DNA of 64,000 nt, taken from NCBI GenBank assembly GCA_964019695.1, contig OZ026525.1:60172253-60236252 (forward strand). Reading direction: 5' to 3'. Shown one piece after another: positions 2,015 through 54,200 of this stretch. Every line of letters starts with the position of its first letter. Position 1 is the stretch's first letter. The position numbers were made by a program, and so were the translations under genes. This stretch comes from Loripinus fragilis (lineage: Eukaryota; Mollusca; Bivalvia; Lucinida; Lucinidae). The notes under the pieces were generated by a model. The model saw only the letters and a list, made by a program, of their open reading frames with translations, was not told the origin of the DNA and ran no database searches.

Positions 2015-3432
2015 CATGCACCCCTGCAAGCATACAGCGACGAGCAACCATCGGCCTACCAGGGAAACGCCATTTCGCTGGCAGGTTGATGGTGGCCCGT
2101 TTTTATATGTTCATATGTGGCTGGCCGAGTCCGGACAGAAAAGAGAACTGGACAGTCTAGTGGTGCCCAACGTTACCAAAAAATAACATGCACCCCTGCA
2201 AGCATACAGTTACCAGCAACCATCAGCCTGTCGGTGAAACGTTATTTCGCTGGCAGGTTGATGGTGGCCCGTTTTTATATGTTCATATGTGGCTGGCCGA
2301 GTCCGCACAGAAAAGAGAACTGGACAGTCTAGTGGTGCCCAACGTTACCAAAAAATAACATGCACCCCTGCAAGCATACAGTAACCAGCAACCATCAGCC
2401 TGTCGGTGAAACGCCATTTCGCTGGCAGGTTGATGGTGGCCCGTTTTTATATGTTCATATGTGGCTGGCTGAGTCGGGACAGAAAAGAGAACTGGACAGT
2501 CTAGTGGTGCCTAACGTTACCAAAAAGTAGCATGCACCCCTGCAAGCATACAGTGATGGGCCACCATCGGCCCACCAGTGAAAATACAAATGGCATTTCG
2601 CTGACAGGCAGATGGTGGTCCTCTTTTAGATGTTCATGTGTGGCTGGCGGAATCAGGACAGAAAAGAAAACTTGATAATCTAATGGTGCCTAATGTTACC
2701 ATAAAAAATGTACCCCTGCAAGCATACAGTAACGGGCCACCAACGGTCTGCCAGCGAAATGCCATTCAGAGTTTTAGATGTTCATACGGTGCCAAACGTT
2801 ACCTAAAAATAATTTGAACCACAGCAAGCATACAGTGACGAGCCACCATCAGCCTGCCAGCGAAACGCCATTCAAATGGTGTTTTGCTGGCGGGCCGATA
2901 GTTGCCCTCTTATAGATGTTCATGTATGGCTTGCAGAGTCGGGACAGAAAAGAGAACTTGACAGTCTAGTTGTGCCTAACGTTACCAAAAATAACTTGAA
3001 CCACAGCAAGCATTCAGTAATGGGCCACCATCTGCCCGCCAGCAAAACGCCTTTTAAATGTGGCCCGCTTTTAGATGTTCATGTGTGGCTGGTCAAATCG
3101 AAACAAAATACTGGCAAAAGACTATGAAAGAAGCTGGTTTGTCTAGGGAGTAGAGGAAGGAGTTTCAGTAGATTTCATGTTTGACTGGTCGAGTCGAGGC
3201 AGAAAAGAGAAATTAATAATCTAGTGTTGCCTAACGTTACCAAAAAATATCATGCACATCCCAGCAAGCAGTTATGTGCCACCACCGGCCAACCAGCGAA
3301 ACACCATTCAAATCATGTTTCGCTGGCTGACCCATGGTGGCCAGCTTTTAGATGTTCATGTGTGGCTGGGGGATTCGGAACAGAAAAGAGAAGTGGACAG
3401 TCTGGTTGTGCCTAACATTACCAAAAAGTAAC
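1947..3432. repeat. Tandem array of the TBCCD1 last-codon segment plus 3' sequence
   Basis: The unit starts in the coding exon at 'ggctggccgagtc' (1947). It recurs at 2119, 2291 and 2463 (exact 172-bp spacing), then more irregularly near 2642, 2926, 3084, 3187 and 3364. Each unit carries LAESGQKRELDSLVVPNVT, a stop, and an imperfect palindrome ('ccaccatcggcc...ggcagatggtgg'). One unit (about 3110-3200) also includes upstream codons corresponding to 1860-1946. Units beyond the first follow the stop of the real gene, so they are expected to be 3' UTR or noncoding. Confidence 0.9.
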
Positions 3433-19900: not shown

Positions 19901-22900
19901 GCTGCAGACCCTGCTGAGAGTTTTATTGCCTACCATGACAGTTAATTTTGTTTGTTTAATTTGATTCTTTACGTCCCATTAACAATCTTTCAGTTATAAA
20001 GGGACGGGTCTTCCTGGGTTGAACCAGTACTAAGCTAGGATTAATGTGTCTTGCTCAAGGACACAACGCAGTGACGCCGGTGAGGCTCGAACCCGCGGCC
20101 CCTCGGTCTCGAGTGAAGCACTGAGCCACTGCGCTCCCACCATGACAGTTAATAGCCATTGTTGTTGTTGTTGTTGTTATTGGCCCTTTGGCCAAAGTAT
20201 CTCTCAGGTATGTTCGATTCTCGGTAGATATAGCTACTCCTAGTAAAATCTCTCAAGTATGTTATTTATAGCTAGTGTGTCGGGTTCAGTTGTTTAGTTA
20301 TATTAATAAATTTCATAGTTTGGGTAATTTATTGTTTGTCAAATCTTTTAGTTTTAGAGAGGAAATCTTCAAATATTAAGTTGATGCTGTCTCTAAAGGG
20401 TTTCAATGGATTGTCTTTGGATACTTCCAAGAATGTTTTTGCACTGAAATCGTTGATTCCACAACTGTAAAACAATCTTGTTCTCAGCCTTTCACGTATA
20501 TCCTCATACAATGCACAGTCTTCTATGAAGTGCTGAACACTCTCCGGATCCCCACATCTACAATTTGGTGAATCTTGCAAACCAGTCTTGTATCTATATT
20601 CATTCAGCCTGCAGTACCCTGTTCTGAGTTCAGATATAATTATACCCGCTTTTTTCTTTAGAAAAAAAGGGTATATTAATTTCGTGTCAAAGTCGGTCCG
20701 TCGTCCGTCCGTCCGTCCGTCCGTGCGTACGTCCGTCCGTCACGTTTCTTGTAAATGTATCTCCTCCTAAACCATTAGAGGTAGCAACTTCAAACTTTGT
20801 AGGTGAATAGGTCATATGATGTAGAGGGTACTGGGCGACATTTCGTGTGACCTTGACCCCAAGGTCAAGGTCAAATATTGTATTTTCTTGTAATTGTTTC
20901 TCCTCCTAAATGGTTAGACGTAGCAACTTCAAACTTTGTAGGTGAATAGGTCACATGATGTAGAGTGTACTGGGCAACATTTTGCGTGACCTTGACCCCA
21001 AGGTCAAGGTCAAAGGTCAAATATTGAATTTTCTTGTAAATGTATCTCCTCCTAAACCGTTAGAGGTAGCAACTTCAAACTTTGTAGGTGAATAGGTCAC
21101 TTCATGTAGAGGGTACTGGGCAACATTTTGCGTGACCTTGACCCCAAGGTCAAGGTCAAAGGTCAAATATTGAATTTTCTTGTAAATACATCTCCTCCTA
21201 AACCGCTAGAGGTAGCAACTTCAAACTTTGTAGGTGAATAGGTCACATGATGTAGAGGGTACTGGGTGACATTTCGTGTGACCCCAAGGTCAAGGTCAAA
21301 GGTCAAATATTGTATTTTCTTGTAAATGTATCTCCTCCTAAACGGTTAGACCTAGCAACTTCAAACTTTGTAGCTGAATAGGTCACATGATGTAGAGGGT
21401 ACTGGGCAACATTTTGTATGACCAGGTCAAAGGTCAAATATTGACTTTTCTTGTAAATGCTTCTCCTAAAGCTTTTGATGTAGTAACTTCAAACTCTGTA
21501 GGTGCATAGGTCACATGATGTAGAGGGCACTGGGCAACATTTAGTGTGACCTTGACCTGAAGGTCAAGGTCAAATAATGTACTTTCTTGTAAATGCATCT
21601 TCTCCTAAACTGTTGGACGTAGCACCTTCAAACTTTGCAGGTGCAAAGGTCATATGATTTGGAGGGCACTAGACAACATTTGGTGTGACCTTGACCCATA
21701 GGTCAAGGTCATTTAGTGTATTTAGTGTATTTTTAGTAAATGCTTCTCCTCCTTAACCATTGGACATAGCAACTTCAAACTTAACAGGTGCATAGGTCAT
21801 ATTATGTTGAAGGTACTGAGCAGCATTTTGTGTGACCTTGACCCCAAGGTAAAGGTTATAGGTCAAAAAGCGGGTATTTGCGATGGTTTACCATCGACTT
21901 CTGCTCTAGTTCTCTGTGTCTTGATGCTTTGCATAGGAACCGTCTGCACATTTACTGAGGGCCGGAGATCAAACAACTGTCTTCCTGTGGCTCCAGCCTC
22001 CCATCTCTTCTGCCATTTTATATTGCAGGATTCTTGAACTGCTGTCTTTATATCCAGTGCTGTAACCGGGTTGGTGACTTCAGGCATTCTTTCGGCCTCT
22101 TCTGCAGCTGTCTTTGCTAATTGATCTGCAATTTCATTACCAGCTATGTCTGCATGTCCCGGTGTCCATTCCGCCAAAATATTTAACTCATTGCATGATA
22201 AGCGCAATTTGTCATCTGCTGATAACCCTTGCAAACAGTTTGGACCCAGATTAGGCCCGACAAATTGTCGGGCCTAATCTGGATCCAAAGTGTTTGACAC
22301 CCTAATGGTATTCATGAAAGAATTTTTCAGAAAAGGTGATTTTGAAAAAAAAAAGACAACAAAAAATCATCAAAATTTACCCAAAATTTACTCAGCCTGC
22401 AAGATAATGGTCCTCGCAGACCTCAGCGCTTTGATAAAATTTGATATGGTTCTAACATAGCCTGGAAAACTGAGCAATCATCTATTACAGACTGTAAAGA
22501 CCAGTGCCTCTAATACATAGCTCTGTCTCATTAGCTACTTGATGTACCTCATTAACTGGTATGAATCCCCTGTCAGTCATGTTGATCCCTGATCCCTTGA
22601 GGAAGTCTGTAGCAGGTGCAACACCTACAATGTAAACAAGACAGTCAAGCTGGCCCTTAACTCTTTCCTTGCTAGCAGTGGCATTTGTCATCTGCCGATA
22701 ACCTTTGCAAACAGTTTGGACCCAGGTCAGGACCGGCAGAATGTCGGTCCTGAGCTGGATCTAAACCATTTGATACTCTGATGGTGTTCCTGAAAGATTT
22801 TTTTTTTTGAAAAAGTTAATTTTGAAAAGAGTCAGTAGACGACAACAGGAGTATTAAAAATTACCCAGCATGCAAAGAGTTAATTGCTTATTTTGTTTGA

Positions 22901-25900
22901 ATTATAGTTTAACCACCAAGTCAACCAGATATGGACAAAAAAGTTCAGTTTCCTGGGTGGCAACCAGAGGCATTTCAACAATGCGAGTGCTTGTTCTGGT
23001 TCCTATCTTTACTCGAATGTGTAAAGCCTGGTATCAGTGCAACGAGCGCCCGCAAGCACTCGCGTTGTTGAACTTACCTCAGTACTTACACTTCTAAACA
23101 ATGAGGAAAAAGTGCCTTGCTGGTGGAAACAACACAATGCCTCCAGTTTGGCTCAAACACATAACCTCTGTATCTAAAGTCCAGCACTGAGCTGCTGTGC
23201 TCTTCCTTTAATTGCTCATCTGAGGTTGACAGTAATTGTAAAAAAAAAGTAAAGAGTTTGTTTCAATAACCCCAGAAAGTATGTTTGTTTTGGATAAAAA
23301 AAATGGTATTCTAATGCTCTTGCTTTAGTAATGTGATGTCTGATTGGATAACCTCAAATATTTGAGACAGTTTAAACTATATTGCAAGATAAATGTCTCA
23401 AATATTTGAGGTTATCCAATCAGACAGTACGTTACATTATTATATTGCCTGAAATAGTTCAACGTCATTAATTACGTCACAATTTGTTTGATTACATGCA
23501 GCTTTATGCGTGTTGCAAGGCTCTAATTTGAGACAAAATATTTTTTTTATGGTGAACAAACTCAGTTAAATGCATTTGGGATAGCCATATTCAAAATGTT
23601 CATTTAGGGAGGTATATCCTTGGATATACGGTTGGAAATCATACATTGCTGTTAAACCAAATTTCTGATTGTATATCCCATGATAAACCTCCCTAAATGA
23701 ACATTTTGAATATGGTTATCCCCCTAAATATTTTCCTTATCTCCCTAAACCTTTGTATTATGTAATAAACAGCATTTAAAGAAGATCTTAAAAAATAAAA
23801 TATTTTTACTGACCGTTCCAAGGCGGTACTTCTTTTGATGGTCATTTGTGTTATTTATGTCTTAAGTTTGCCATGCTTTCGCGTCTGTTCATTGCTGCCT
23901 TGTGGTCACCTTAGGGAAAGGGCTGACCTCTTGGTTCTTGTTTGTGGTGTTTATTGTGATTTTGTTACTTTCCCATTTGGTATCCTGGGACAGTTGTGGT
24001 ACTTGATTGTATCAATTCCTGATGTTTGCTGTCTTTCTTACTTTTACTTATAAGAGTGCTCATGTATTATTGAATTTATTAAGCAAGTTGGGGAAAGGAG
24101 ATAAATTATGAGGCTTGCCAATCATTTTATTGCTTTTTAGAATCAAGTTTATTAAATTCAATAATAATTATAATGATTCAATTTATCAACATAATTGACA
24201 TCATGTGATAGAAACACAATATGAGCAGCAACTTACCAACTCCTAGAATGCATATATCAGCTGGTATCTTCGCTCCGGTGGACAAGACTGCTTCTGTCAC
24301 TTTGCCATTCTCACCAAGAAACTCCTTAATACCCGCTTGGAAGTGGAATTTTACTTTCTTTTCTTCATGCATCTGTGATGAAAACATAAATGACAGAATT
24401 ATTAGTCAGTGTCACAGGCCCCCAGATAAGAGTTCGTAAATGAAAATTATTTTTCTTATTTCTCAACCAAAACATATGTTGTGGGTACTCAAAAGAACCG
24501 TCTCAATGAGACGGTTCTTTTGATCACCCAAAACACATGTTTAAACTGATAGATAAGAAAACTAGAGGACCTGAAGGTCCTGAGGCGCTCACCTGATCTC
24601 CTTAATAATGTTAAAATAGGTCAAGGTCAACTACAGCTTTTAATGGAACAAATTTTGTTTTTATCATATACATTTTGGTCAAGTGACCTAAACAATCTAA
24701 TGAATAATCCATCAAACAGCCCAGTGATTTCTGAGAAAAAAATGTTTAGATAGGTATGTGGCAGTCCAAATGAGTGGCCTTGGATAAAATGTCACAGGTC
24801 AGCTTGACATTTTGTACTTACTAGTGATAAACCAGTGTCGCAATAGGTTTAACTATTATGAATTTGGCTGGCTCAGTTATAGAAATGAACATTTTAAGAT
24901 TTTCTCCATGTAAATGCATTAGGAATCAAATTTGACCGTGCCATAAAGTAGGTCAAGGTCAACCTAGATTCATCATTTGTGCTAACTTGGTAGGGCCCAC
25001 ATCCCCGATCCTACATACCAAGTCCCAAAGCCAATGGCCTTTTGGTTCCAGAGAAGAAGAGATTTAAAGAGTTTTTACCATATATGGGAATGGTGTTCAT
25101 GTTAGTCATGTGACCATAACAATTTGTATAAGTTTTGGCTAACCAGTCATAAGGAGTTGTCAAATGAAATTTGCTTTCAATTGGCCAAGAATTATCTGAG
25201 AAAACTATGTTATTAATATGTTGATGGGACTCCAATATAAGCGACCTTGGCTGAAAGGTCAAAGATCAACCTTGACCTTTAAACTTATCTATAGACACTA
25301 GATTAAACATATCAAGTGAGAATAATGACTTTTGCTTCCACAGTATTCAAAAAATCAACTTTTCAAAAAATTTCCCATTCAAATGCATTAGGAAGCAAAC
25401 TTGACCTTGACGTTAAGTAGGTCAAGGTCACCCTAGGATCATCATTTGTACAAACTTGGTAGGCCCCACATCCCCAATACTACATACCAAGTCTCAAGGT
25501 CACTGGCTTTCTGGTTCTGGAGAAGAAGATTTTTAAAAGGTTTTTACCATATATGGGCGTGGCGGCCATCTTTGTAATGTGACCAAAATATTTTGTATAA
25601 ATTTTGGTTGACTTATCATAAGGAGTCTTCACATAAAATTTGAGCTCAATTGGGCCAATGGTTTGTGAGAAAACTATGTTTTAATATATTGATTGTACCA
25701 CAATATGAGCGACCTTGGCTGAAAGGGCAAAGGTCAACCTTGACCTTTGAAACTTATTTATAGCCATTGTCTCATTAGTTTCAACATATCAAGTGAGAAT
25801 AATCACTTTGGCTTTAACAGTATTCAAAAAATCAACTTTTCAAAAAAAATCCCATTTAAATCCATTAGGAAGCAAATTTGACCTTGACGTTAAGTAGGTC

Positions 25901-31900: not shown

Positions 31901-34900
31901 GACCATAGCTGTTGACTGGGATGTTAAACACAAACCAAACAAAAGCATGACTTTCTTGGGGCTGTGCACGTCTGAAGCATAGATTGGGTAAACAGAAAGA
32001 AAGAAATATCAGGGTTCTCACAGGCTTGAAAAGTACTTGAATTTAGAAGGCTTTCTTGAAAAGTCTTGAAAAATATATATGCCTTGAAAAGTACAGGAAA
32101 ATCACTCAAAGGCCTTGAAAAGTCCTTGAATTCTTCTATTTTCTGTAGGAATAAAAACTGTTGATAGAGATCAAAATAAGTATAAAAGTGTTGTGCCTTT
32201 ATTTGGTGCAGCAAATGCTGCACCAAATAAAGGCACAACAGTTTTATACTAATTTTCTGGTACCGGTACTAATTTCTCCATTAACACTTAAATCAGGATT
32301 TTTCATAAACTTTTAGTCCTTGAAAACTGTAGGATAGTCTTAAGAAGTCTTTGAAAAGTCCTTGAATTTTGCTCACCATTGCCTGTATGAACCCTGAATA
32401 TAAAAGCTGCAAATAGATACAAGCAAATGAATTCATGCATTATGGGAAATATTCTGGAAATCAAAAAATATTTTTAATGTAGTTACACAAAAGCATTCTA
32501 ACAGCAATGCTCAACCATGTAGGAATGCTCTTTAAGACTTAGCACAGCATGCGTAGTTAAATAGGCATGTATGGTGACTAAATAAGGTATATGCATCATA
32601 AATTCAGATAAAATATTGAGCATAAAATGCTGAATATTTTCTTATCAATCAGTTGAAACATATTTTTGCATACTCAAAAACACTGTCTTTTTGTTTGGGT
32701 TGAGAAATAAGAAATTTATATTTCTAATTTATACACACTTTAGATTTATCAAAATTCCTGCATCAGCATGTGCATGTCAATATCAAGGAAGAGACCAAGC
32801 AGCACTGGGAAAAGATATAGTATTACATAATCATAGGTCTGGATAACAAAAAATGCTGAGCGTAATAATGTTAATATCTTCTTATCTATTAGTTTTAACA
32901 AATGTTTTGGGTGCTCAAAAGAACCATCTCATTGAGACGGTTCTTTTGAGTACCCACAATATATGTTTTGGCTGAGAAATAAGAAAACTAATTTTTAATC
33001 ACACACTTTTATCTAATGTCCCACATGATGAACATGATGTCCATATGAAAAGAGACAAAGCAGCGCTAGGAAAAGATATATACATAATATAGCTAGATAC
33101 ATAAGCTCATGCTCTTTACATACAGTGCTCATGCTCACTATATTACCTTCTTAAACACACTACCAACTCTCTTGCCAAACACATTCTCTAATGGACACTC
33201 CCCTCGCACAAGCACATGAATGCTTGAAACATTCTTTCCAGCCATATAGGTGGCCACTTCGAGACCTAAAGTAGGAAAGTACAGTAAAACCTGTGTAAAA
33301 CCACCACTCAAAAATAGACAAAACAAAGATTTTAATGACAAAAGGTAGCTTAATTTAGGTCGAAAGTATTGCTGAATGCTCCCCTTGGAGCATTCTGCAA
33401 TACATTTGACCTGTATTAAGCGATAATAGGTATTGAAAACCAATTTTGGTCTTCTTTTTGAGTGGCCGCTTAAGACAGGTTTTACTGTAATCCAGAAACT
33501 GCTTAGGCCTAAAATGAAAAGCTGTGAATTTCAGGCTACCCGACCATCCCTAAATTTTTACCCCGACCCTAATTTTTAAGCAGTTTTGAAGGATTTCCAA
33601 GGGACTTTCCCAGTCGGTTATTTTGTTTCCCTATCACTCCCATGTAAAAACTTTAATCAAAAAAATTCCTACCTTCCGGCCCTAATTCAAAATTTCATGT
33701 AACCTTAAACACATATTTTTATTGTAGGCCTTTGCCCTTTTAGGACCAATGGAATTTCCCATAAATTTGATACTGTTCAGTCAGAAGGGTCCATTGAATA
33801 AATTAAGGGGTTACATATTAGAATCTCCTAAATATTTAATTTCTTTCTCTGAAAATTGATTCTGATAACCAATATCTTATCTGAGAACAAGTACAGAAAA
33901 GTGTTCAAAACTCAGGGCTTTTTCCAGCAATTTAGGGAAAAGGCCCCAGGCCAAAATTGGGAAAAAATGATGATCGACTTAACAGCAAAATTGGGAGAAA
34001 TTAACGACGTAGAACATAACAAGGGTAGCAAAATATATCCTCAAAATCAAGCTATTTTAGATTGTATAATGCCAACCATACCATTTAAGCACAAGTGTTT
34101 AAGTATCATTCTGATATGGGTCATTGTTTCTCACAAGTAGTAGTGGTTTCTAAAAAAGTAAAAAAAAAAACACTTTTTTTTTTACTAAAAATTACTTAAT
34201 TGAGAAAAACAGACATGGTATTGGGATAAAAGGTCGTTATTTTCGATTGGGAATGGGGCCGAAATTCAGCCCCTAGAGAAGGGCAGAAAATGCCCTGAAA
34301 TTTCAGAACATTTACCATGGATCTCCATTTTCAGGGAACAAGACAGCTAATCAGCTAGAACAAGCAGGCATCTGAGTATGGTAAATGTTCTAAAATTTCG
34401 AATTCTAGATATCTGCCCAATAGGCCTAGACAAACAGTGCAGACCTAGATCAGACTGCTTCTGAAGAAGCAGTCTGATCAGAGTCTTCCCTGTTTGCTAT
34501 TCTGACAAGCTTTTTGTGAATTCCTTCACTGAAAATTTGATTTGAGAACAGAAAAAGAAAAGTGTTTGAAATTTTAAAACATTTATCATTAGAATAAGGA
34601 AAGGATTCCCAACACCATCACCTCTAATAAGGCCAAATAAAAACAAAAGTGTGTTTTAAGTACGAGTCGGAAAATTTTAGGCAGGTTAAGCTCACACATT
34701 TTTTCTGGAAAAATATAGCTTTATGCATTTTGAAAGGCATTTCACCTTTCAAAATGCATAAAATTATATGAGCCGTGGCATGGGATTTCCAACAATGTGG
34801 TATGTGCGACCAGCAAAGCCTCTGATCATCCTGCGCATACATGCAGTCTGATCAGAACCTTTGCTAGTCACTTGAAAATTCTATGAGTGTTAAGCTACTT

Positions 34901-37900
34901 ACTGAACATCATTTGGAGTTTCTAATCTTAAAAGGAGGCTGCACAGGCTCGTCTGAGTCTACACTTGTCAAAATGCCACATTGTTGGAAATCACATGTCG
35001 TGGCTCAATTATATTATTTCCAGTGACCCTGAAAAAATCCTAGGCTTCACCCAAAAATTTAGGTAGGGTCGGGTTACCTTTAACACAGGTATTTTCTTAT
35101 TTGGCCTTATCAGTTATTCATCTTTATCATATGATGCCAAATCAAGTGATTTCACACCACATACCAGAATTGATAAACCACTAGTTTTTGTAACATAATG
35201 AATGATGCCCTTAGCAACACCATATTATCTGAGGCAAAATCTAATCATTTTTAACCCCAAAATATAATTTCCAAGTAGCTTAAGTGTCATATGATAAAAA
35301 GAGGATCTTACATGAGTGTTCATGTTTTATTTAATTTATAAAACAAGTTAGGGGATAAGAGATAAATGCGAGGCTTGCCGAGTATTTTATCTCTTTTTCA
35401 CAATGAGTTTAATAAATTTAATAATACAAGAGCAAGAAAGTTAGATTCTATTTATCATATGACATTAAAATTACTTTGAATCTCATTTCTGCCGTAAAAA
35501 CGCTTTAATTTTGTCATTATGTATGCAACGTTGCTATGGACGTCATAACTTTTTCCGAAAAACTGTATACTACTAGTGGTTTATCGATTTTATTGCATGC
35601 TGTTATTTCACTCCCAGACGTGATGTCATGCGATAAATAAAATTCTAACACTCATGCTCCTGTAATAGTGTATTTATTAAAACTTTCAGGAAAAAGCAAT
35701 AACATGCTCAAAAAGAATCACATTTTATCCCTCTTCCTCTAATTTAAATCACTAAATTCAATACATGAGCACTCATGTAAGATCCTCTATACTATGTAAT
35801 ACACAGATTTTCCCTTTCAAAAATCTAAATATGGTATCAATAGTACCTTTTGAAGAGCTACCCCAACCTTGGCTCCGAGGACAAGTTCAAATGGCACCTT
35901 GATTATGTCAACTACAGACACTGACTTGGCCTTTTCAGCAAGAAATGATGCTACTTCCATACCTGAAATAGGCCAAACTGTGTGTAAGTTTTTGACAATA
36001 ATATTAACCCTTTACCTCATAGAAACACCTTTTGACACTTTTACAAATAGAGCAGACCCAGATCAGGCAGCTCTTGTAAGAGCTGCCTGATCAGGGTCTA
36101 CTCTGCTTATGGAAATATGATTAGATATGATCCTACACTAGTGGACCTGACAATTAAATTCTTTGCTCTATGTACAAATGTAAAAGTTTATTTATAATGA
36201 GGAGCATATATAGCATGAATATTCATGAAGGAAAAGGTTAAGTTGATAAGATTGTCCATAAATGTGCAACCAGCAAAGGCTCAGACATCTGATAAGAGCT
36301 TTGCTAGTCGCTTGAATATTCTATGAGTGTTAAGCTACTGACTGAAAATCATTTGGAGTTTCTAATCTTAAAAGGAGACTGCACAGGCTCGTCTTAGTCT
36401 ATTCATGTCAAATGCCACATTGTTGGAAATCACATGTCATGGCTCATTACTTTCACATGCATTTCCCATACAAAACATCCTTAGGCGTAAGTGGTATTTT
36501 TTTTTAATTACCAAAAGTAATAGTTAATTTTTTTATAGTCACTGAACTAAACTCCAGCTGATAAGTTTTTAGACTTAATTTTTCGCAATAACTTTTTTAT
36601 GTTCAATTTTAGCAAAATGTGTTGGCGATGAAAAGTATTCAGGAACATCTCCGCCAACTTCTCCAAATGTTTCTTACATCCTAGATGCTGCAGGGTCCTC
36701 TGTGCTTAGATGCACTCTTTGAACATTTTAAGCAAAGCGCAAATAAACTAAGTCCAAGATGTCAGTCAAAAAGTTACATTGCACCGCCCTAATTCAATTA
36801 CTAAAGCGACGGATGGCTTGTTCAAATATAATAGAAATCGCGCCTGATTCGCTCGTGCGTTAAACTGGTAGGGTCATCTCAAAATCGTTCATTTCATAGC
36901 ACGTGCATACGAGAAAAAATGCACGTCTAGCGATAACCCAGCCTTTGTCTATACAAAAGCGTGCTTTAAGTTGATTCTGCAAATGCACGGTAATTTCTGA
37001 GTATGATGTTATGCACAGCCTTTGAGGAATATGCACCGGTTCCGAATAATTTTTGAAAACACCCCTTTCTGTCACGCCTATACGAATTATACCTGTCACT
37101 AAAAGACTTAGAAATTAAAGACGAATTCAAATTATTGCAAAATCTTCATCTATATACACAAAAATCTGTTTGCGCCACAAGCACAAGACCTTTTGGAGAA
37201 GTTGGCGGAAATTCTCCTCTACAACTTTCATCGCGAACACATTTTGTTAAAATTGAAGACAAAAAAGTTATTGCGACAAATTAAGTCTAAAAACTTATCA
37301 GCTGGAGTTTAGTTATCAGTGAACAGTTTTGGATATAAACCGGGACTATACCATGCCCTGGTTTCCCGCTTCACTCATAACATGAAGGTGCTTATCAATA
37401 AGAAAACCAAAAGTAATACCAATTGCCAGTCGCTGATGCGGGTACCGTTTGTTTACATCAAGAATGACCGATTTTAGTTTAACCAATTAAACTCCCAATA
37501 ACTTGTTTTCTTGTTAGAACATGAGGAATATTTTGAGACCAAATTAAGCAGATGAGGCTAAATTTTCTGTTCAGCAATACAGAATCTCCATGTAAGTGAC
37601 CCTGCTAAGTATTTAAAAAGTTTGACATCATCAAATGGCTTTGGTTCCAAAAAAGTTTTTCATGCCTGTTATAGGTAAGTCAAACTATTACCCATCAGTG
37701 CTGTGGACGACGTTCGGCAAGGGGTGATAGTACACAGTTATTTCATGCCTATCTGCAGCATAGTCAAGTTACTACCCCTCAATGTTGTCAATGATATGGG
37801 TCACATTTCCCTTCAAAATCAAAATTTGTTCACCCGAGGCAGGTAATATCACCTGTCAAGGGTGAACAAATCATCATAATACAGTAAAACCTGTCTTAAG

Positions 37901-40900
37901 CGGCCACTCAAAAATAGACAAGACATAGACCTTAATGACAAATGGTAGCTTAATGAAGGTCAAAAGTATTGCAGAATGCTCCCCTTGGAGCATTCTGCAA
38001 TACTTTTGACCTGCATTAAGCAATAATTTGCCTTGAATACCAATGTTGGTCTTCTTTTTGAGTGGCCGCTTAAGACAGGTTTTACTGTACCCTCACACAG
38101 TGGCAATAACTGTATAAAATTGCCTCGTAGAGTAATCAGGACAAAAAGTATAAAATATGTTTAAAGCTATAAAGCTCACCTATGAAAGAAGAACCAATAA
38201 TCACTACATTCTTGTCTTTAACATTCTCTGCAATCTTGTTGGCATCATCCGGAGTTCTCAGGGTGAACACATTCTCCAGATCTACTCCAGGAATAGGTAG
38301 TACTCTCGGCCTGTTTCAGATGATAAATTTAACATTAGCAGGGTTCATAAAGGCAAGGCTAAGTAAAATTCAAGGACTTTTCGAGGACCATTTAGTGATT
38401 CTCCTAGTTTTCAAGGACTTCACTTTTATGATAACTACTTGTTCCACATTTACAGTCTTATCTCGGAAATTCTAAGTCATAGGGACTAGAGATTTTATTT
38501 CGAGTTATCAGTATTTTGAATTATAGGGAGGTAGACATCAAATATATACCCCCATAAATTAGCATAACTATCATGTTTTTTTTCTATCAAACATACGTTT
38601 TGGGTGCATAAAAGAAACGTCTCCATGAGAAGTTTCTTTTACTCATCCAAAACATATGTTATAGTAGACAGTTATTTAGATAGATCATGAATAGGTCCTA
38701 TTCTATGAATCCAATGTGTACCAAATTTATTTTGAATTAGGGAGAATTTCAAAAAATCGACTTTTTGAGGTTTTACTGTAGTTTATAATTCAACTTGGCA
38801 AATGCTTGACAACTGATATAAACTGAGAAATCAGTATTAATTTGATTTGACTTTATTTGGTGCACTTTTTTGTCTCAAGTCATTCCGGTATTGAGTTGAA
38901 TTGCTGTTTTCTTGTCAAGAAACAAGGGACTTAGGTTAGTCCATTGTATATATGAAGTGGTTACACGTTAAATTTCCAAAATAAAATTGTATTTCTTTCT
39001 CTGAAGATTTTTTTTGTCTTAGCAAACACATGGAGATGCATCAGCGGAACTACCGGGAAATCGCGTTAACATTAATTTGTTCCCTTGTCACATCCGGGAC
39101 CCACCTTGGTAGTGTCCTCACTATGAAATAGGTGAACAAAGGTAGGAACTCTCGCATGTTTTGATTTTTAGTAGAAGAATGAGCAATTTATGTAGAATTT
39201 CGGCAATGCTATTCCATGTTGATAGGATTTAATTTTCTAAACAGGCCAACAAAAATGTTGAAAAAATGCTTTGCTTTGAGATGACGACCATAACCAATCA
39301 AACTCACAATGGCTTTTCTTCAGTTTCATGTCAACACGACCAAATGCAATGTTGTGCCACTTTTCACTCAGAACAAGAGCCTTTTATGTGTAATAAGCAA
39401 TTTTTTAACTCAACAACTGCTTATTGGTCAGTCTGATTTGATGCTTTACTGTTTTTTTCTGGCATGATGAGACATTTTACTGGGTTGAACAAGTACAGAG
39501 CAATGAGGTCGAGTAGTGTCTTGCTCAAAGACACAACACAGCTTCTAGGGAAGGATTCCAACTTGCAGCCTCTCTATCAAAAATCCATAATTCTACCAAC
39601 AGAGCTACTTAGAACAGCAAACAGTGTCTGTCTGATCATGGTCTGCACTATTTACCAAATATTTTTTTCTCAAAAGCTGGAAAGATTAACTCTTTGCATG
39701 CTGGGTAATTTTTCACTTTTTTGTCGTCTGTTGACAATTTTCACAATTGACCTTTTCAAAAAAAAATTTCAGGAACACAATCAGAGTGTCAAACAGTTTG
39801 GATCTGGGGTCAAAGAGTTACATAGCTCCAGATAAGGATTGGGAGCAATTGGGTATTTACCCACTTCTTTTTGGCTTAATTGGGTATTACAGTGGTCTAA
39901 ATAAGGATTTAGACCAATGGGTATTTTACCCCCTACTTTTTAATTTAATGAGTATTTTACTCCCTACTTAAAAATATCAAATGGCAGAAAATGCAAAGTC
40001 TTGTAAAAAGACCCATTTTATTTGCTTAACATATTTTAAAGAAAAGTTGCTTGTATTAAATACATGTTACATTTTTAGGATAACTTCCAAGATTTATACA
40101 ATTGATGTATATTAGAATTTTTTCTTACCAAGAATAAAAGATTTCACCACATAAATTGAATATCAGCGCTGAAACCTCAAACTGCAAAGGGTATTTTTAC
40201 CCTTCAGTTTAATTTTCAATGCTGATTTCCAAAAAATCAATGCTGAATACCCTTTACTCCCTCTTATCTGGAGCTCTGCTGTATTTCACATTTTAAATTG
40301 GGTATCCATCTGAAAGCAATTAAGCAATGAAACCCGGCCTAGTTTCTCCTGAATTTTTGTTTACTTTCAGTTTCACTTTCAGAGAGCTCACTGACAATAC
40401 TGCTAAGTATATCAGATTCTGAGACCACTATTTCTAACTTTTCAAAATTCCAACGTATTTATCAAGTCACCTATGATTCTTCAAACCTTCAACGCGGTAT
40501 TAAAGTTTAGTTACGAGACAATATTATTTGATTGCTCTGGGGCTTTTTCGCCCACGTTTCGCCATTGTTATCATAAAGTGAGACGAATGTTGTAATTGTG
40601 TAAATATTGGGTATAGCCCCCGGGGTATAGCTAAACAGCGATAAGAATGTTCCTGGACTGGTTTACAATTTAATATACTAGATTTGGCACCACGCTGTAT
40701 ATAAATTTGCACCCAACAATTGCTTGTTGTATGCAAAAACAGCAATAGCAAACTGAATACTATAGCGTCATACACTATGAAAAAGTTCGGAATTGAGTAT
40801 CAAGGATTTTTATTGCGTTTCTGTACTCATAGAAATGAATTAAATTGCATTTTCAGATCCAAGCAATTGCGTAAATAGGCAATATGCAGCCTTATCTGGG

Positions 40901-43900
40901 GCTATGGAGTTAGAATATTGACTGTTATACTCACTTTCCACCAGTAGCCACTACTAAAGTATCATACGTCGCAGTACTTCCATCTACAAATGATACACAC
41001 TTGTTTTTTGGATCAACAGACTTCACCTAAAAGCAAATATTATATATTTCTTAACACTGTAGAACACTAAAACACCAAACCCAGTTAAGCTGAATGAACT
41101 TCCCTACCCTTATCAGTAGCACAAGCCCATTTCTAATTTTAGGGGTGTTTGGTGTTATTTTTCATTTCTATTCAAATTCTAATATAACATTCTGTGAGCA
41201 AACAGTGGAGACCCTGATCAGACGCACCATTCTGCGGCGTCTGATCTGGGTCTGCACTGTTTGCCTTTGTCCCACAAAAAGGACGCTAGGCTTATATGGA
41301 TTAATATTCACTGACATATTTGCTTAGTTTAATTTTGGTGGTTTCTCAACTTAATTCCCTTTAACTTGGTGCTTTAACTCAACAGAGTGTTGGTCCTGAT
41401 CTGGATCCAAACTCTTTGACACTCTGATATTGTTCCTGAATTTTTTTTGAAAAAAGTAATTTTGAAGAAAAAAAATCAGAAGACGACAACAGAGTACATA
41501 AAGAGTTTAAGGAGGTTTTTGCACATTTGGGCTTAGCCCATTATATGGTTGCCTGTCTGTATCATTATAAATGTATGGTATCTGACTACGACAAATGTTC
41601 TAAAATTTTGAACACTAGTTGCCTTCCAAACAGGGCAGACCCAGATCTGAAGAAGCAGTCTTTTTGACAAGCATTTTGTGAATTCCAGCCCTGAATGCCG
41701 AACATTATACTTTATAACAGAAAGAGAAAAGTGTTCAAAATTTTAGAACATTTATCGTAGTATACAATTTCAACCTACCTCCAGGCCCCCAGATAAGAGT
41801 GTATATTGGAAAACTATTTTCTTTATTCCTCGACCAAAGCATATCTTGTGGGAACTCAAATGAACCGTCTCAATGAGACGATTCTTTTGAGCACCCAAAA
41901 CACATGTTTAAAATGATAAGTAATAAAATAATCACAATTTTACCCTCATAAAATTTCCTTATCTGGATCTATGCCTACCTCTTTATCTGTAGTGACAGTA
42001 ATATCATGTGACTTGTAGAATTCAGCTGGCCTCAATGCAATGGCATCTGGCTTTACATCCATGGCCTGAAAAAATGACAAATGACAGGTAATGTTTAGTG
42101 AAATTCTTGTGTTTTCTGAGCAAAAATGTACAGTAAAACCTGCATAAAATGGCCAATCAAAAAAAGACACAACAACGATCTTAATGACAAACGGTAGCTT
42201 AATGAAGGTCAAAATATGAAAGTATTGCAGAATGAGCATTTTGCAATACTTTTGACCTGCATTAAGCGCTAATTGGTCTTGAAAACCAATTTTTGGTCTC
42301 TTTTAGAGTGGCCGTTTTACACAAGTTTTACTGTATTCACCAATTAGGAGAAATCATTCAGTAGCACAACCTCCAACAGCTCCCACAATTCAATTCATGT
42401 CAATTTCTGTCAACACATGACTAAAAGTAAACGCAATTTTATTGGACAGGAGATTTAAATTTCAAGTTTTAATATGTTCAAGCATAAATGACATCTATGT
42501 TTTTCATTTTTTGTCTTAAATCGGCAATTGTACATGGTATTTTTCCCAAAATCATCAGCCATTGGAGGTCCCAGTAAACTCCTTGATGTCACCCATGCGC
42601 CTGATAAGTCTGATCTGGGTCTATATTGTTTGCAACATAGGCTACTTAAGAACATAAGCAGATGAGAGGAGCAGATGACAAAAGTTGTGACTGGCGGGAA
42701 GAGGATTAAAAGAAGATCAACAATACCTTGCTTAGTTTGATTCTGTCATAAGGTATATATTTGTCCTTGGTTACTATGGTAACATCACCTTGATAACCCT
42801 CTTGCCTCAATGTCTCAGCACAAGCTACTGAAGCAGGACCGCCGCCAATAATGAGAACTTTTTTGTTGTTATCAGCTGCCTTCTTGCACATTCCTTTCTG
42901 TCTCTTCTTGTTCTCAAGGGCTGTTTTATCAGCAATGACCTTGACCTTTCCATCCTTGACCTCAACCTAGATTCAATGTAAGACAATCTTAATGCAAGAT
43001 GTCCACCTCCTAAAGCAGCTATACATTGCTATCAAAGCATTTACAGGAAAAAAACGATAAATTTATTTGTTATAGACAGCTTGCTTAAAACCCTTTTCAG
43101 AGGAGTGGCTGAGTGTTAGACTTGGGATCAAAGGGTTGCTTGGTCGAGACTCCCAGGAGGCACTATGGTGTGTTCTTGAACAAGGCACTTGCCTCATTAT
43201 CCTCTGTTCAACCCAGGAAGAAAGGAAAATGTCCAGACATGACTGAATTTTTTTTGACTGGGACATAAAGCATCAACACAAACATACAAACAAAAACCCT
43301 TCTTGATTAAGTGAATCTCCCATCCTGTTTGATGCCAAAATGTCTGGAAGCCCCATTTGACAATTAAGGGGTTACATGTTAGAATTTCTTAATAATACAT
43401 GTATAACAAGACAAATTCGACGAATTTATATCCCCCGACGAAGGGTTAATCGAGAGAGAGAAACATGTAAATCACAAAACATAAATCCCATTTATCTAAA
43501 CCTTAGTTCACCTTCAGTATCATTCAGATCATAACTATGTTTTAGTGCTTAGTTTAATAAAAATAAACTTACACCAGCACAATTTCAATATCTGACCTTT
43601 AAACCCAACCCCAGAGGTCAAGGGTGTGTGTAAATTCAAAGTGTTACCTTGCATGTAGGTCTACACTTCTTCCACTTTAATTTGATATGCAACATGACCA
43701 CTTTTAGAAAAGAAAAAAAATACCTTTTTGACCCCATCCCAGGGGTTGTGGTGTGTGTAATGACTGCATATTTGCTTTCATGGTGCTCTGTGCTCAATTC
43801 CCTTTAATTTGATATGCAAAATGACTACTTTCAGAAAAAAAATATAGTTTGACCTTTTGACCCCACCCTCTGGGTCGAGGGTAAGTCTGTGGGCAAAATG

Positions 43901-46900
43901 TTTGGTACCATGTTGCTGCCAGCGTCGTCAGATTTAATTTGAAATGCAACCGGACTACTTTCAGAAAAAGATATAGTTTGACCTTTTGACCCCACCCCCT
44001 GGGTCGAGGGTGTGGCTGTAGGCAAAATATTTGCTACCACATTGCTGCCAGCATCGTCAGCTTTAATTTGATATAACATGACCATATTCTGAAAAAGTTT
44101 AATTTTGGCCTCGGCCCCACCCCCTAAGTCGACCCAACGGGCTCGGACCCAGGCCTTCAAACTAAAATCCCATTTGATATGTTTCATATCTATTGCTGTT
44201 CTGCCTGCATGCAAAATTTCAGCAAAAAATATTAACAATCGCCTTAGTTATTGCAAAATTTAAATATTTGACCTTTGACCCCTTAGGTGGGGTCAAAGGG
44301 GGTGAGGTAAAACTTTGACACTGCCATGCTTATCTACAGGCACTTGGCAATCATGGTCTATAGTGAGAAGTTGTTAAATATAATAGCTTTGATGAAATGT
44401 GAAGATCATCACACAAGAAAGCTAAGGCCATAATATTTTTATCAGTTGATTTACAAACCCTCCTACTGTAATTTTCCGGAAAGTAGAAAAAAAAAAATTT
44501 AATTTCTAAAAAATTTCTTTTATTTTATCGGCCTACTCTAAATATTATTTGTTCTGTTGAAAAAAATGATATATTTTTGAGGTTCTGTCTGTGTATTTTT
44601 GAGAGTGACACTGTTAAAAGTGATTGCCCTGTCCATTTTATTTAAAGATTTAACACAGACTGTTGGTTTACCTATTATCTGGAGATATTAAAAAAAAAAA
44701 AAAAAAAGCTCTGAAAATTAAAAAAAAAATAAAAAAGCTCTGAAAATGACCAGTTAACAGGTCATTTTCAGAGCTTTTTTATTATTTTTTTTCGTCCCCA
44801 CGACCCTAAATCTGAAAAAAAAATCCCGTAAATCAACTAATAAAAAAATTCTGGCCTAATACAGGTTTTGCCTTGTAATTGCCTATACTAAAACAAGGGC
44901 AATAACTCAAGTGTTAAGGGGTCGATTTTAACCAAACTTATCGGATATCAAGATTCCATGGTACTAATCATTTGTACCAAGAATGAATCAAATCTGACCA
45001 ATAGGTACTGAATTATGGTTCCGGACAGACAAAAAGTGCGGACAAACGGACTGACGGAAGGACGGACAGAATGGACGCACGGACAACGCCAAAATTATAT
45101 CCCTCCGACTTTGTCCGGGGATAATCATTTTGTTGCTTAACATTTATTCCACAGCACATCAGGTCATCTGGGACTATAATTATAATGTTTGTTGCGGGTT
45201 TTCCATTTATTTCCCCAAGATGCTTCTTTTAATCACCCAAAACATGTTTTGACAGGAAATCATTAAAATAGTTCACTAATACATGCATGTATGCCATATC
45301 CTCTGATTCCACAAAATGGATCAATGTATCCAAATTTAATTCAAAATACATGTAGTGGGTACTTCAAACTATCCGAGTTTAAACTATCAAAGCTATAGCT
45401 AATTTCATACCGAGTTTTCCCGACATGTTCCGATTTGCTCCGAGCCCTCCCGAATAGAAAAATATCAAGCCAATCAAAAAAACTTCCCAACAACGTGACG
45501 TATATTTAAATAAGCATTGTAGATACCCAATTTGACCAGTGAAAACGTGCGAATGTATGTAGTTTTCGGTTATTTTAGGAATTTCTATAGCCAGATTGAC
45601 TTAATAGCTCAATGCCACATTACCAATGATGCTTTTGACGAGATTTTGAGTCATTCTTCAAATGGTGAAATGTTTACATAAACACCGACTCAGTCAGTGA
45701 CACCGGTGCTGTGACTTACTCAATAATGACGTCAGAGGGGTAAACAACCAATGGTACTGTTTGAAAAACATAAAATGGTTTTCGAGGTAACAATAAACAT
45801 ACAGAGCGGCGCTAAGTGGCCCCTTACAACTAATCCCCACTTCGTATGCAATATATACAAGCCTGTTTGCTTACAAAACAGAATTTCTTTTGGTGTTTTG
45901 ATGCTGGCCTCGAGCACATGGCTGCTCGGTCTCGTGGTAATGGAACAAATTTTGGTTGGCTGAGGAAGTCATGTGATAGTAGTACATGTGACTTGAGTCC
46001 CGATGGAAATCCGGAAAAATACGGAAGGCCTATGAAATCAGCTATACTGTACCTTGAATGTCTGGATGCTGTCCAGCCCTGGGTAGTCTTCAATATCTCC
46101 TGTCTTGATGTTGAAACAGGCACCATGCCAAGGGCAGCGAACTCTTCCATTACAGTATGCTCCTGAACAAACAATATACAGTAAAACCTGTCTAAAACGG
46201 CCACTCTCAAAAAGACCATAAATTGTTTTTCAAGACTAATTATCTCTTAATGCAGGTCAAAAGTATTGCAGAATGCTCCCCTTGGAGCATTCTGCAATAC
46301 TTTTGACCTTCATTAAACTACCATTAAGATCTTTATTTTGTCTATTTTTGAGTGGCTGTTTTACACAGGTTTTACTGTAATGAAAATCAGGAAACGATTA
46401 TAAAAAATTACATGCTTGCACCTTAAGATAAGTGCCTCGTTGCCAGAAAACCTGACTTTATTGTCTGAAACAACAATGGTGCAGACCAGCCTGCGCTTCC
46501 GCGCAGTCTGATCAGCACCTTTGTTATTCGCTACCTGTAAAATATAATATCTAAACATGCATCATCAGGGGTGTAAAATTCCACTTGCCCGCTCGCATTT
46601 GTGAGTAAAATGTTATACAGGGCGAGTAAAAGTTTTGACAATTTGTGTTGTACTTTTATAATATACAGCATCTCGGAGAAAAATTGGGGACATGAAGGGT
46701 GATTAACTTATCTGGAAATTTTACACCCCTGATCACGCAAAATTTCAACATTTAAGCTAGTCTCTGTAGCTAAGCAAGCTGGTTTTAATCTTACCTGATT
46801 GCAAACCCTAAAGACAGGTTTTTTCGCCACCATGCCCATATATGGCTGCTAGAAATGAACAAACTATGAAACCTGTGCAATTTTGCACAGGTTGCACATT

Positions 46901-51277: not shown

Positions 51278-54200
51278 AAAGATCACAAAAAATAGGTTTT
51301 CATCGCAATACTGGTCCTGATTCCCTGAAAAATTGCATAACTACTAGGCCAGAATTCAATGTTAGGCCATCATCGGCACGCCAGCAAAACGCCATTTAAA
51401 TGGCGTTTTGCTGGCGTGCCGATGATGGCCGGCTTTTAGTGGTATTTTGATCATCTCTATACTCATCAACTAAAAAACAACAACAACAAAAACGTTGTCA
51501 AAGTTGGACCCCATCTGACAAAAGTTTCTGGATCCGCGCATGACTGGGATGTAAAGTATCAACTCATATAATCGATGTCCACAGTTGCTCAGTGCTAGTG
51601 TGTTAGACCTGTGATTAAAGAATCGCTATTTTGGGAAGGTTCAATAAAAGCACTTCGAAAAGTCCTAAGCAAGAGACTTTATTTTCTGCTAAGTACTGGG
51701 TTAACCTAGGTGGACAGGAAACGTCGCGTCATGGCTGCAAAAATGTTGGCAGCGACGCAAAACATCAATACAAACACACAAAATCAACTCAAAATAACAA
51801 AATAGACACTCATCTCTAATTTTTGCTGCAGTTGTGTGCGTCTTCTGGTACACAGGTCCTATGTGAAAATATTCGCGCGTTAAAAATGTTGTCGATGAAA
51901 ATATTCTTCCAAATTCTGTTTGTTTGGCAAGAAAATGATTTGGTGTTTAACTCTGAATTTGAAAAATAGCATTAAATCAACAACATAAAAATAGCCCCCC
52001 CCCCCCCATACACACACACATTAAAATTCAGCATGCTAAGGGTTCAATAAATAGATCACCGGGAAAGGATACACATATCTTTTATTAAACAATAAGACTT
52101 GACTGAGTGAATGTAGATATCATTGTCGAAGATTGATGGTTTGGTTGTATAGTTTAAGATACACGTACGTTTTAAGATACAGTACATATTTCAAACAAGG
52201 TATCTGGGCTGATCAGATTCATCTTCAATATTTCGAAACGCTTATTTTCCACGATACCGCAACTATAAGACTACAGGTATATTCTTTTGGTGTGGAGAGT
52301 TTCACAGATGGGTGAATACGCGAACAATGCAACCTGACTAGCCGATTTCAAAATGTATTTGTCCAGGGGTTGAACTTAGCTAAGAACCGCCCAACGTCTC
52401 TTAACTGGACGGAGTATACCAACATGAAAGTTTATTTATAATTATTCATAGTGGGTGGAGCCTAGCATGAATATTCATGAAGGAAAGGGTTAAATTCCAA
52501 GTTGTTATATCCAGCAGGGCTAGAGGTCTAAATTTTAGTACGAGTCTTCCTCTACAGCCATACTTTATGTATGCAAGCAGCGAAGGCAGGCCATCATCCG
52601 TGCAGGCTTGCCAGAGCCTTCACACCAAAATCTCGTGCTGGCTCCTTGAGGAGCAGTCTGATCTAGATTTAAACGGTTTTCTCAGGTTTATCTGCTCCAA
52701 TAGTTTGCATAAAACACTGAACAGTTGACATGAAAAACCAACATTTGGCCTCGAGCATTTAAAACTTTTTGCATGTTTTAACTCTGGGTAAAACACTGAA
52801 CAGTTGACATGCAAAACCAACAGTTGGCCTCGAGCATTTAAAACTTTTTGCATGTTTATCTCTGGGTAAAACACTGAACAGTTGACATGCAAAACCAACA
52901 TTTGGCCTCGAGCATTTAAAACTTTTTGCATGTTTATCTCTGGGTAAAACACTGAACAGTTGACATGCAAAACCAACAGTTGGCCTCGAGCATTTAAAAC
53001 TTTTTGCATGTTTTAACTCTGGGTAAAACACTGAACAGTTGACATGCAAAACCAACATTTGGCCTTGAGCATTTAAAACTTTTTGCCTGTTTTAACTCTG
53101 GGTAAAACACTGAACAGTTGACATGCAAAACCAACAGTTGGCCTAGAGCATTTAAAACTTTTTGCATGTTTAACTCAACTAGCCATGAAATTTTTCAAGC
53201 TCATATTATAAAATTGTTGAAATTTATCATGCTCATAAATGTTAAAATGCCATCAATTGTTGGCATCTTAATATTTATGAGCATGATAACTATAATATCT
53301 GAGAGTTTTAAATCAAGAAAAGTCTTTATTTTTTAGCATTTCAGTTTTAATGAGCCATTAATTTCATGCTCAGTTGAGTTGAGCATGAAAGAGAGAAATT
53401 ACCTCAGGGCCTGGTCTTCCACTTACCCTTCTCGAGTGGAGCACCGTAATGGGAACATTTGGGTCCAACAGCATAGAATGAGGAGCCATCTCTCACCAGC
53501 AATGCCTGACCGACACCTCCCACATCCACCTCCTTCATTCTAAACAATAACAGTGAAGAAACTAGAATTTGCTTGTAAAACCCTATATGATATTTCCAAG
53601 GAATTTTACTAGGCCAAATGCCATCCCAATTCAAAAAGTAGCAAAAGCTTCACAAAATGGTGTTTATTATTCCCAATTTCTAAGCTCTACATTTTGGTGA
53701 AAACTTCATGAAAATCTGAACAAAAATACCAAAGTTACAGATGCGAAAATTTTCATTCACATATTCATGCAAATTTTCATGAGTTTCTATGATGGGCAAT
53801 TTAAGCTACAAATATGTTACAGCTTTACATTGCTTATTTCTTAAAAAGGTTTTTAATCCATTTAAAATGGCGGTCCAGTTCTTTTTATAGACTACTTCAA
53901 ATTTTCTAATTTTGATGGTCCAAATGCTTTTTTCCCCAATTTCAACAGGCCCCTGGTCCCAACTTCAGAAAGGTCGTAAAATCCCTGTCTCCAAGACCGT
54001 ACATTAACTCTTTCTGTACTGGAAAAATTTGCATGTTTTTCTCGTCTGCTGATTTTTTACAATTAGAGTGTCCAACAGCTTGGATCCAGATCAGGCAGGA
54101 CATTTTGTCGAGCCTGATCTGGGTCCAAATGGTTTGCATAGGTCATCAGCAGATGACACTATTAGATAAAGAGTTAATTTTTCAATTATCCTGCTTTTAG

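Follow-up and report, generated by a model that had tools for sequence, protein, structure and literature searches.

An AIFM3-like gene of the clam Loripinus fragilis with a conserved pair of alternative exons predicted to exchange the coenzyme loop

Results

An AIFM3-like gene with two versions of exon 8

The window, that is the whole 64-kb stretch of Loripinus fragilis DNA that we analysed, carries on its minus strand an intact gene for a Rieske domain joined to a flavoprotein (Table 1). With either exon 8a or exon 8b, the predicted product matched the Pfam families Rieske, Pyr_redox_2, Pyr_redox and Reductase_C, and the order Rieske, Pyr_redox_2, Reductase_C fits an AIFM3-type protein. The fold is that of the ferredoxin-reductase/AIF family, and relatives are annotated as apoptosis-inducing factor 3-like. 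Judged by these sequence features, this bivalve gene codes for a Rieske flavoprotein reductase of AIFM3-like type. A terminal exon beyond exon 14, which is expected from relatives, was not found in a motif search of the window.

Table 1. Exons of the AIFM3-like gene, in window coordinates.
Feature	Position	Strand
Exon 1 (first one located; upstream exons without location)	59168..59306	-
Exon 2, Rieske domain	53427..53539	-
Exon 3, Rieske domain	46053..46162	-
Exon 4, start of FAD-binding part	42727..42966	-
Exon 5	41979..42065	-
Exon 6	40935..41026	-
Exon 7, ends on first base of split Gly codon; donor common to 8a and 8b	38180..38310	-
Exon 8a, 116 nt, starts within last Gly codon of GSSFIG; coenzyme loop D-I-I	35847..35962	-
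Exon 8b, 119 nt, homologous to 8a and its alternative; V-R-G at the coenzyme loop	33147..33265	-
Exon 9 (MHEEKK...), acceptor common to 8a and 8b	24237..24372	-
Exon 10	22548..22624	-
Exon 11	15407..15524	-
Exon 12	12043..12141	-
Exon 13	10811..10886	-
Exon 14, Reductase_C domain	8819..8923	-

A sequence-only reading of this DNA had proposed that 8a and 8b are mutually exclusive, and the coordinates, lengths, phases, split Gly codon and splice dinucleotides that it gave for them all proved correct. The 13 shared exons code for 545 aa when joined to 8a and for 546 aa when joined to 8b, in both cases without a stop. The predicted frame effects held as well: inclusion of both exons shifts the frame, so that translation of 8b meets a TAG at its codon 26, while skipping of both breaks the frame, with a stop two residues on. 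Homology of the two peptides follows from their BLOSUM62 global score of 59, given that the maximum among 2000 shuffles of 8a was 24. Because 8b of L. fragilis has one extra residue, placement of the gap relies on the Mytilus exons, which are equal in length; aligning the window peptides directly with each other sets it at another position. A sensitive tblastn search of the whole window with both peptides gave matches of E<1e-20 at the 8a and 8b loci only and, since the next-best matches were weak (E 6.1 for the 8a query, 0.12 for the 8b query), no third copy (8c) was seen in the window.

Splice sites were scored with a matrix built from the other 13 exons of the same gene. The donors of 8a and 8b scored 4.3 and 5.3 (other exons 2.7-10.0) and the acceptors 6.6 and 5.0 (other exons 1.1-11.1). 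Among the 711 GT sites in 38179-24373, 13% scored at least as high as the 8a donor and 8% at least as high as the 8b donor; for the 756 AG sites in the same interval, the corresponding values were 4% and 11%. The sites, which the earlier reading had called good, are thus intact and inside the range of the other exons, but ordinary rather than strong. Both donors being moderate would fit an 8b that is an unused leftover in this clam, as would a repeat with many genomic copies that ends ~14 nt ahead of the 8b acceptor. Such a leftover is nevertheless very unlikely: the 8b frame is open, its splice sites are intact and its identity to Mercenaria 8b, at 80%, falls within the 61-84% of constitutive exons 2-14, although identity to 8b of Mactra (65%) and Mya (70%) lies below that of most constitutive exons in those species. 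The pair shows the properties of mutually exclusive exons, being adjacent, homologous, of the same phase and of similar length, with usable splice sites.

Both exon types recur in other molluscs

Sequences of the 8a type and of the 8b type both recur in bivalves and gastropods. An 8b missing or broken in close relatives would have spoken against the original proposal, but many bivalves have intact sequence of both types, and the splicing half of the original proposal is well supported by two Mytilus species, each of which has two proteins that differ only inside exon 8. In Mytilus californianus, isoforms X1 (P0028) and X2 (P0019) differ at 20 of 915 residues, all located at 666-697 and hence inside the span encoded by exon 8 (residues 660-698). 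The M. coruscus proteins P0018 and P0027, which are not named as isoforms, differ at 21 of 903 residues, all at 654-685. Two unnamed clusters, P0021 (8b) and P0031 (8a), of 903 aa each, differ from each other at 20 residues in exon 8 and at 6 elsewhere; with contigs of only 3167 and 3257 nt, they have the appearance of spliced transcripts. Both isoforms are therefore seen as annotated or transcript-like proteins in Mytilus.

Most species show one form only, because the protein collection was clustered at 90%. Together with the M. coruscus pair and its lack of isoform naming, this pattern could be read as two separate genes in the relatives and an accidental pair in the clam. We regard that reading as extremely improbable, given that the M. 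californianus proteins are identical at all other residues and named as isoforms of each other, and that the window shows a single copy each of exons 7 and 9, with both versions of exon 8 between them. Exons 8a and 8b are almost certainly conserved mutually exclusive exons, and we infer from the sequence that L. fragilis produces both isoforms.

The exon duplication appears to be old

In a tree of exon 8, the 8a sequences grouped across molluscs, with all 22 8a rows on one side of a branch (support 84/94, not starred; present in 90% of 200 bootstrap trees). Recent separate duplications were rejected both for L. fragilis, by holding the 8a and 8b of the window together (p-AU 0.0019), and for Mytilus, by holding the Mytilus 8a and 8b together (p-AU 0.0042). 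In a tree of the gene body, that is the gene minus exon 8, owners of 8a and 8b were interleaved by lineage: the 8a/8b labels require 14 changes, at least 11 of them forced, and a single 8a clade was rejected at 7e-56. Because 8a sequences group across molluscs in the one tree, yet their owners interleave in the other, the trees indicate that the duplication is old and not peculiar to this clam.

How the choice between 8a and 8b could be made exclusive

At a minimum, exclusivity would be enforced by the reading frame, as transcripts with both exons or with neither would run into an early stop. Steric exclusion through a very short intron between 8a and 8b is ruled out by the intron length of 2581 nt. 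We also considered a palindromic repeat of which one copy lies just after exon 7 (37880-38090) and another just before 8b (33279-33489), and which might loop out 8a by pairing. The joint fold of the two copies (-235.8 kcal/mol) hardly exceeds the separate hairpins (-133.3 and -93.6 kcal/mol), so that looping-out is a weak idea.

Exon 8 encodes the loop at the end of strand 2

According to models of orthologs, exon 8 would code for the greater part of helices A and B of the NAD(P) domain, together with strand 2 and the loop after it. In AlphaFold models, strand 358-363 of the Mercenaria 8b protein ends with Cys363, and strand 365-370 of the Ruditapes 8a protein with Asp370. This first loop position is Asp in 21 of 21 named 8a proteins, which thus carry a loop of the NADH type, where strand 2 ends with an acid. 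The 8b exon of the clam has the NADPH-type loop (no acid at this position, Arg next), and the bivalve 8b loop reads [V/C/A]-R-G in all 10 named proteins and in the window; C-R-G occurs naturally in Mercenaria, Mactra and Mya and A-R-G in Potamilus and Saccostrea. Gastropod 8b proteins have Gly first (G-R, G-Q, G-T or G-N), and since Arg comes next in only 2 of 7, with the other 5 falling outside the NADPH type, not every 8b carries the basic residue. Across 279 homologs, an acid was present in 48 and a basic next residue in 64, the two never occurring together. The second Arg of glutathione reductase, six residues past the first, is absent in 8b, which has Glu there.

Enzymes of related fold vary at the same residues, which set the NADPH enzymes glutathione reductase and P. 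horikoshii CoA disulfide reductase apart from the NADH-only A. fulgidus Npsr. E. coli glutathione reductase (1ger) has V-R-K at the loop (VRKHAPLR) and its variant 1ges, which we take to be the NAD-directed redesign, has E-M-F, according to the PDB sequences. Glu175 of BphA4 falls in the same column as loop position 1 and forms a hydrogen bond to the adenosine ribose. The titles and sequences of PDB entries 4h4v-4h4y give the mutants E175C/T176R/Q177G and E175A/T176R/Q177G, with CRG or ARG at the loop; these count only as designs, because published kinetics were not found. The CoA disulfide reductase of P. horikoshii (PhCoADR), with VRG, has a Km of <9 uM for NADPH versus 73 uM for NADH, and A. 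fulgidus Npsr, with E183-M184-M185, uses NADH only (PMC6026696, PMC7969121). For rice MDHAR, removal of the key Glu is reported to have given a 16-fold gain in NADP affinity, but with the 2'-phosphate not in the expected place; its Glu196 was ruled out as an equivalent site, as it sits two residues further on.

A predicted switch between NADH and NADPH

Because 8a and 8b encode the same structural piece, the splice choice would swap the loop contacting the adenosine ribose and leave the rest of the enzyme unchanged. The 8a isoform, with an acidic Asp and two hydrophobic residues, should prefer NADH, since in relatives an acid at this position forms hydrogen bonds to the hydroxyls of the ribose and, it has been proposed, repels the 2'-phosphate. 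The 8b isoform, in which Arg and Gly follow a small neutral residue, would be expected to accept NADPH or even to favour it, as NADPH-preferring relatives carry such a loop. The coenzyme half of the earlier proposal is supported by the position at the end of strand 2 and by the precedents at the same residues, but is weakened by the Arg missing from most gastropod 8b. BphA4, glutathione reductase and CoA disulfide reductase offer closer parallels than the thioredoxin-reductase-like loops that the proposal had named. By analogy with these enzymes, we consider it moderately likely that splicing switches between an NADH-type and an NADPH-type isoform.

AIF behaves as an NADH-gated dimer. The two exons might accordingly be exclusive and conserved while 8b merely relaxes or weakens dinucleotide binding, altering NADH sensing, the life of the charge-transfer complex or dimerisation rather than the choice of coenzyme. 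Gly at the first loop position, found in 173 of 279 homologs, would agree with such relaxation, as would the variable second residue of gastropod 8b. The invariant Arg-Gly of bivalve 8b is, however, hard to explain by mere relaxation, and the nicotinamide-side Glu (GMEV/GLEV) is retained in both forms; we judge relaxed binding to be possible but rather unlikely. The whole explanation that we favour as fairly likely is a conserved mutually exclusive pair that swaps the coenzyme loop and, with it, the predicted preference.

Discussion

The loop carries Glu in AIFM3 from lungfish, amphibians, birds and a lizard, and Gly-Arg or Gly-Lys in a further group of AIFM3-like proteins from amphibians. An evenly balanced proposition, to our mind, is that molluscs hold a one-gene NADH/NADPH splice switch that is older than the split between the sampled bivalves and gastropods and whose natural triplets are those that engineers placed at this loop, and that vertebrates may divide the two loop types between gene copies. 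Our literature search, which covered mostly papers outside subscription, turned up no account of alternative exon 8 forms in AIFM3 or of splicing that switches an enzyme between NADH and NADPH, and no paper on the coenzyme of AIFM3. If true, the proposal would describe a natural coenzyme switch by splicing that draws electrons from either pool in an animal meeting hypoxia and air exposure. It would also provide a functional handle on AIFM3 and, beside coq-2 and alternative oxidase, another case in molluscs of a redox enzyme that exon duplication has remodelled.

The V-R-K and E-M-F loops of 1ger and 1ges resemble 8b and 8a, but unlike in splicing, the change in 1ges was made by mutagenesis and came with other substitutions. 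BphA4 belongs to a close fold family and its mutants have the C-R-G and A-R-G found in natural bivalve 8b; unlike the clam gene product, it is an engineered bacterial NADH ferredoxin reductase. PhCoADR and AfNpsr are natural homologs in which V-R-G goes with a preference for NADPH and E-M-M with the use of NADH alone, but they are encoded by two genes in two archaea and not by one spliced gene (PMC6026696, PMC7969121). Among exon duplications, a close likeness is with coq-2 exons 6a/6e of helminths, annelids and molluscs, a homologous pair that also remodels an enzyme core; coq-2 is a quinone-synthesis enzyme, its two exons are of equal length, and C. elegans lost nearly all of its rhodoquinone synthesis when one of them was removed, whereas the effect of the AIFM3-like pair is a prediction (PMC7434440). 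The duplicated exon 10 of oyster alternative oxidase likewise gives a bivalve redox enzyme two isoforms; its authors found this duplication in two oysters but in none of four other molluscs, and it differs from the AIFM3-like pair in using a terminal exon and an alternative 3' splice site, with no coenzyme swap (PMC5589949).

Two alternative exons in an AIFM3-like gene

The AIFM3-like gene lies on the minus strand of the window, which comes from a 1.99 Gb genome, with 15 exons placed and 14 per transcript. Its introns are GT-AG and its frame is open across the placed exons; the first and the last exon were not found within the window. The incomplete Gly codon of exon 7 can be finished by exon 8a or by exon 8b, and both exons close on a whole codon, giving 545 open codons in the transcript with 8a and 546 in that with 8b. 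Inclusion of both leads to a TAG at the 26th codon of 8b, and omission of both to a stop two residues on. Between the two exons lie 2581 nt, and the outer introns measure 2217 nt (exon 7 side) and 8774 nt (exon 9 side). The exons' splice-site scores fall inside the range of the gene's other exons, and their peptides are homologous (alignment score 59; maximum of 24 in 2000 shuffles). No third exon-8 copy was seen within the window. Rieske, Pyr_redox_2, Pyr_redox and Reductase_C domains were found in both isoforms (Pfam). The sequence-only reading had proposed mutually exclusive exons that may alter coenzyme preference, and we consider it fairly probable that 8a and 8b yield such isoforms, of putative NADH and NADPH type, respectively.

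Positions of the gene, its alternative exons and nearby repeats in the window
Feature	Position	Strand	Length or unit
AIFM3-like gene, placed exons	59306-8819	-	
Exon 8a	35962-35847	-	116 nt
Exon 8b	33265-33147	-	119 nt
Exon 11-derived tandem array	14597-15483		103 bp, ~8 units
Partial exon 14 copy	8544-8702		
Palindromic repeat, just after exon 7	37880-38090		
Palindromic repeat, just before exon 8b	33279-33489		
Tandem array	690-1175		~80-480 bp
Tandem array	1938-2766		~80-480 bp
Tandem array	16838-18384		~80-480 bp
Tandem array	20745-21867		~80-480 bp
Tandem array	24906-26146		~80-480 bp
Tandem array	52710-53176		~80-480 bp

Tandem arrays are numerous, within introns and beyond, and their units range from about 80 to 480 bp. 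One, an intronic exon-born minisatellite, arose by amplification of the 3' end of exon 11 together with the donor site there, and seven further copies beside exon 11 still read as coding. The partial copy directly downstream of exon 14 carries its own donor-like site and has 24 of its last 25 residues alike. The palindromic repeat is present as two complementary copies; its end has at least 40 other genomic matches (best 40 of 425 candidates scored), and, by eye, the exon 3 and exon 5 acceptors have similar ends close by.

Both forms in relatives

Homologs were collected with residues 270-400 of the 8b isoform (best 120 of 641 proteins), residues 290-360 of the 8a isoform (best 120 of 132) and a seven-row alignment of four named gastropods, two unnamed proteins and one chiton (best 120 of at least 3176). 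The exon-8 segment was located in all 279 pooled proteins. Clustering of the collection at 90% identity generally leaves a single form visible in each species; both types recur among the matches listed. The 8a type was found in bivalves (Ruditapes, Dreissena, Crassostrea virginica, Ostrea, Mytilus, Tegillarca, scallops, Solemya) and in Haliotis rufescens, Littorina, Lottia, freshwater and land snails and a chiton. The 8b type appeared as small residue-Arg-Gly (Mercenaria, Mactra, Mya, Potamilus, Pinctada, Crassostrea gigas, Saccostrea, Mytilus), Gly-Arg (Haliotis asinina, Aplysia) or Gly-neutral (Lymnaea, Pomacea, Babylonia, Patella, Elysia). Identity of the window's 8b falls to 65-70% against Mactra and Mya, which counts against the two-isoform reading.

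Annotators had already named AIFM3-like isoforms X1 and X2 of Mytilus californianus (915 residues each), whose 20 differences all lie at 666-697, within the exon-8-coded part (660-698). A M. coruscus pair of 903 residues, without isoform naming, differs at 21 positions, all at 654-685. Two unnamed clusters, one per type, have 2709 nt of coding sequence on contigs of 3167 and 3257 nt; we read them as spliced transcripts because the contigs barely exceed the coding sequence. This pair also has six differences outside exon 8.

Loop residues and age of the duplication

We read three loop positions, from the end of strand 2 of the NAD(P) fold, off an alignment with structures. Among the matches listed, the 8a loop is Asp-[ILM]-[IV] in 21 of 21 named proteins; the 8b loop of the window is V-R-G, and all 10 named bivalves have R-G preceded by V, C or A. 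Gastropod 8b has Gly first in 7/7 and Arg second in 2/7, and this frequent absence of Arg counts against the NADPH assignment, as does the absence from 8b of the second Arg of glutathione reductase. The first loop position is acidic in 48 of the 279 proteins listed; a base after a non-acid occurs in 64 and an acid followed by a base in none. In the wider family, including fungi and bacteria, most of the matches listed start with Gly, followed by Met or some other residue. Among animals, 8b seems to be ancestral and 8a derived, because the 13 non-mollusc animal rows picked for the tree are mostly G-R (8) or Gly plus another residue (4), with Glu in one.

A tree of exon 8 (59 rows, 38 columns; 57 hand-chosen proteins plus the window's 8a and 8b) set all 22 8a rows apart from the rest by a single branch (84/94, not starred); 8b and the outgroups did not resolve, and Babylonia, labelled 8b, was placed among the latter. 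Constraints uniting 8a with 8b were rejected for the window (p-AU 0.0019) and for Mytilus (p-AU 0.0042). A gene-body tree lacking exon 8 (45 rows, 535 columns, quick method) placed the window gene among bivalves, nearest to Ruditapes (77% identity) and then to Mactra, Mercenaria and Mya. On it the type labels require 14 changes, at least 11 of them forced, sisters can be of opposite type (e.g. Haliotis 8b/8a, Mya 8b/Dreissena 8a), and a single clade of 8a owners was rejected. The labels were assigned by us from exon sequence; the contribution of the trees is the exon-versus-gene contrast. Taken together, the two trees suggest that the exon duplication predates the split of the sampled bivalve and gastropod lines and that both copies were retained.

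Vertebrates may offer a parallel by gene duplication. Among the matches listed (vertebrate rows P0052-P0055, P0237-P0279), Glu occupies the coenzyme position in the AIFM3 of lungfish, amphibians, one lizard and birds, fish AIFM3 rows have Gly there and a sturgeon Ser, a second amphibian set, AIFM3 or AIFM3-like by name, shows G-R or G-K, and the sole protein named AIFM4, from a shark, has G-T.

Comparison with known enzymes

By analogy, the loop swap should matter for coenzyme choice. The E. coli glutathione reductase loop is V-R-K, and that of its variant 1ges, reportedly the NAD-directed redesign, is E-M-F. BphA4 Glu175 is reported to form hydrogen bonds with the two hydroxyls of the adenosine ribose, and repulsion between its charge and the phosphate of NADP has been proposed; FdR9, which carries Glu as BphA4 does, reaches 104 U/mg with NADH versus 1.2 with NADPH. 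Mutant BphA4 structures on record are E175C/T176R/Q177G, whose C-R-G is the natural 8b triplet of Mercenaria, Mactra and Mya, and E175A/T176R/Q177G, whose A-R-G is that of Potamilus and Saccostrea; no kinetics of these triple mutants were found in the literature searched. In the alignment, V-R-G-E of P. horikoshii CoA disulfide reductase matches clam 8b. This enzyme is reported to favour NADPH (Km <9 versus 73 uM for NADH), and A. fulgidus Npsr, with loop E-M-M, is reported to be inactive with NADPH (PMC6026696, PMC7969121). For rice MDHAR, removal of an acid two residues further on reportedly raised NADP affinity 16-fold, with the phosphate not in the expected place.

No description of the AIFM3-like 8a/8b pair or of a splice-made NADH/NADPH switch was found in the literature searched. 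Mutually exclusive exons that retune redox-pathway enzymes are already known, molluscs included, as reported for coq-2 (PMC7434440), and oyster alternative oxidase is described as a redox enzyme retuned by an alternative terminal exon (PMC5589949).
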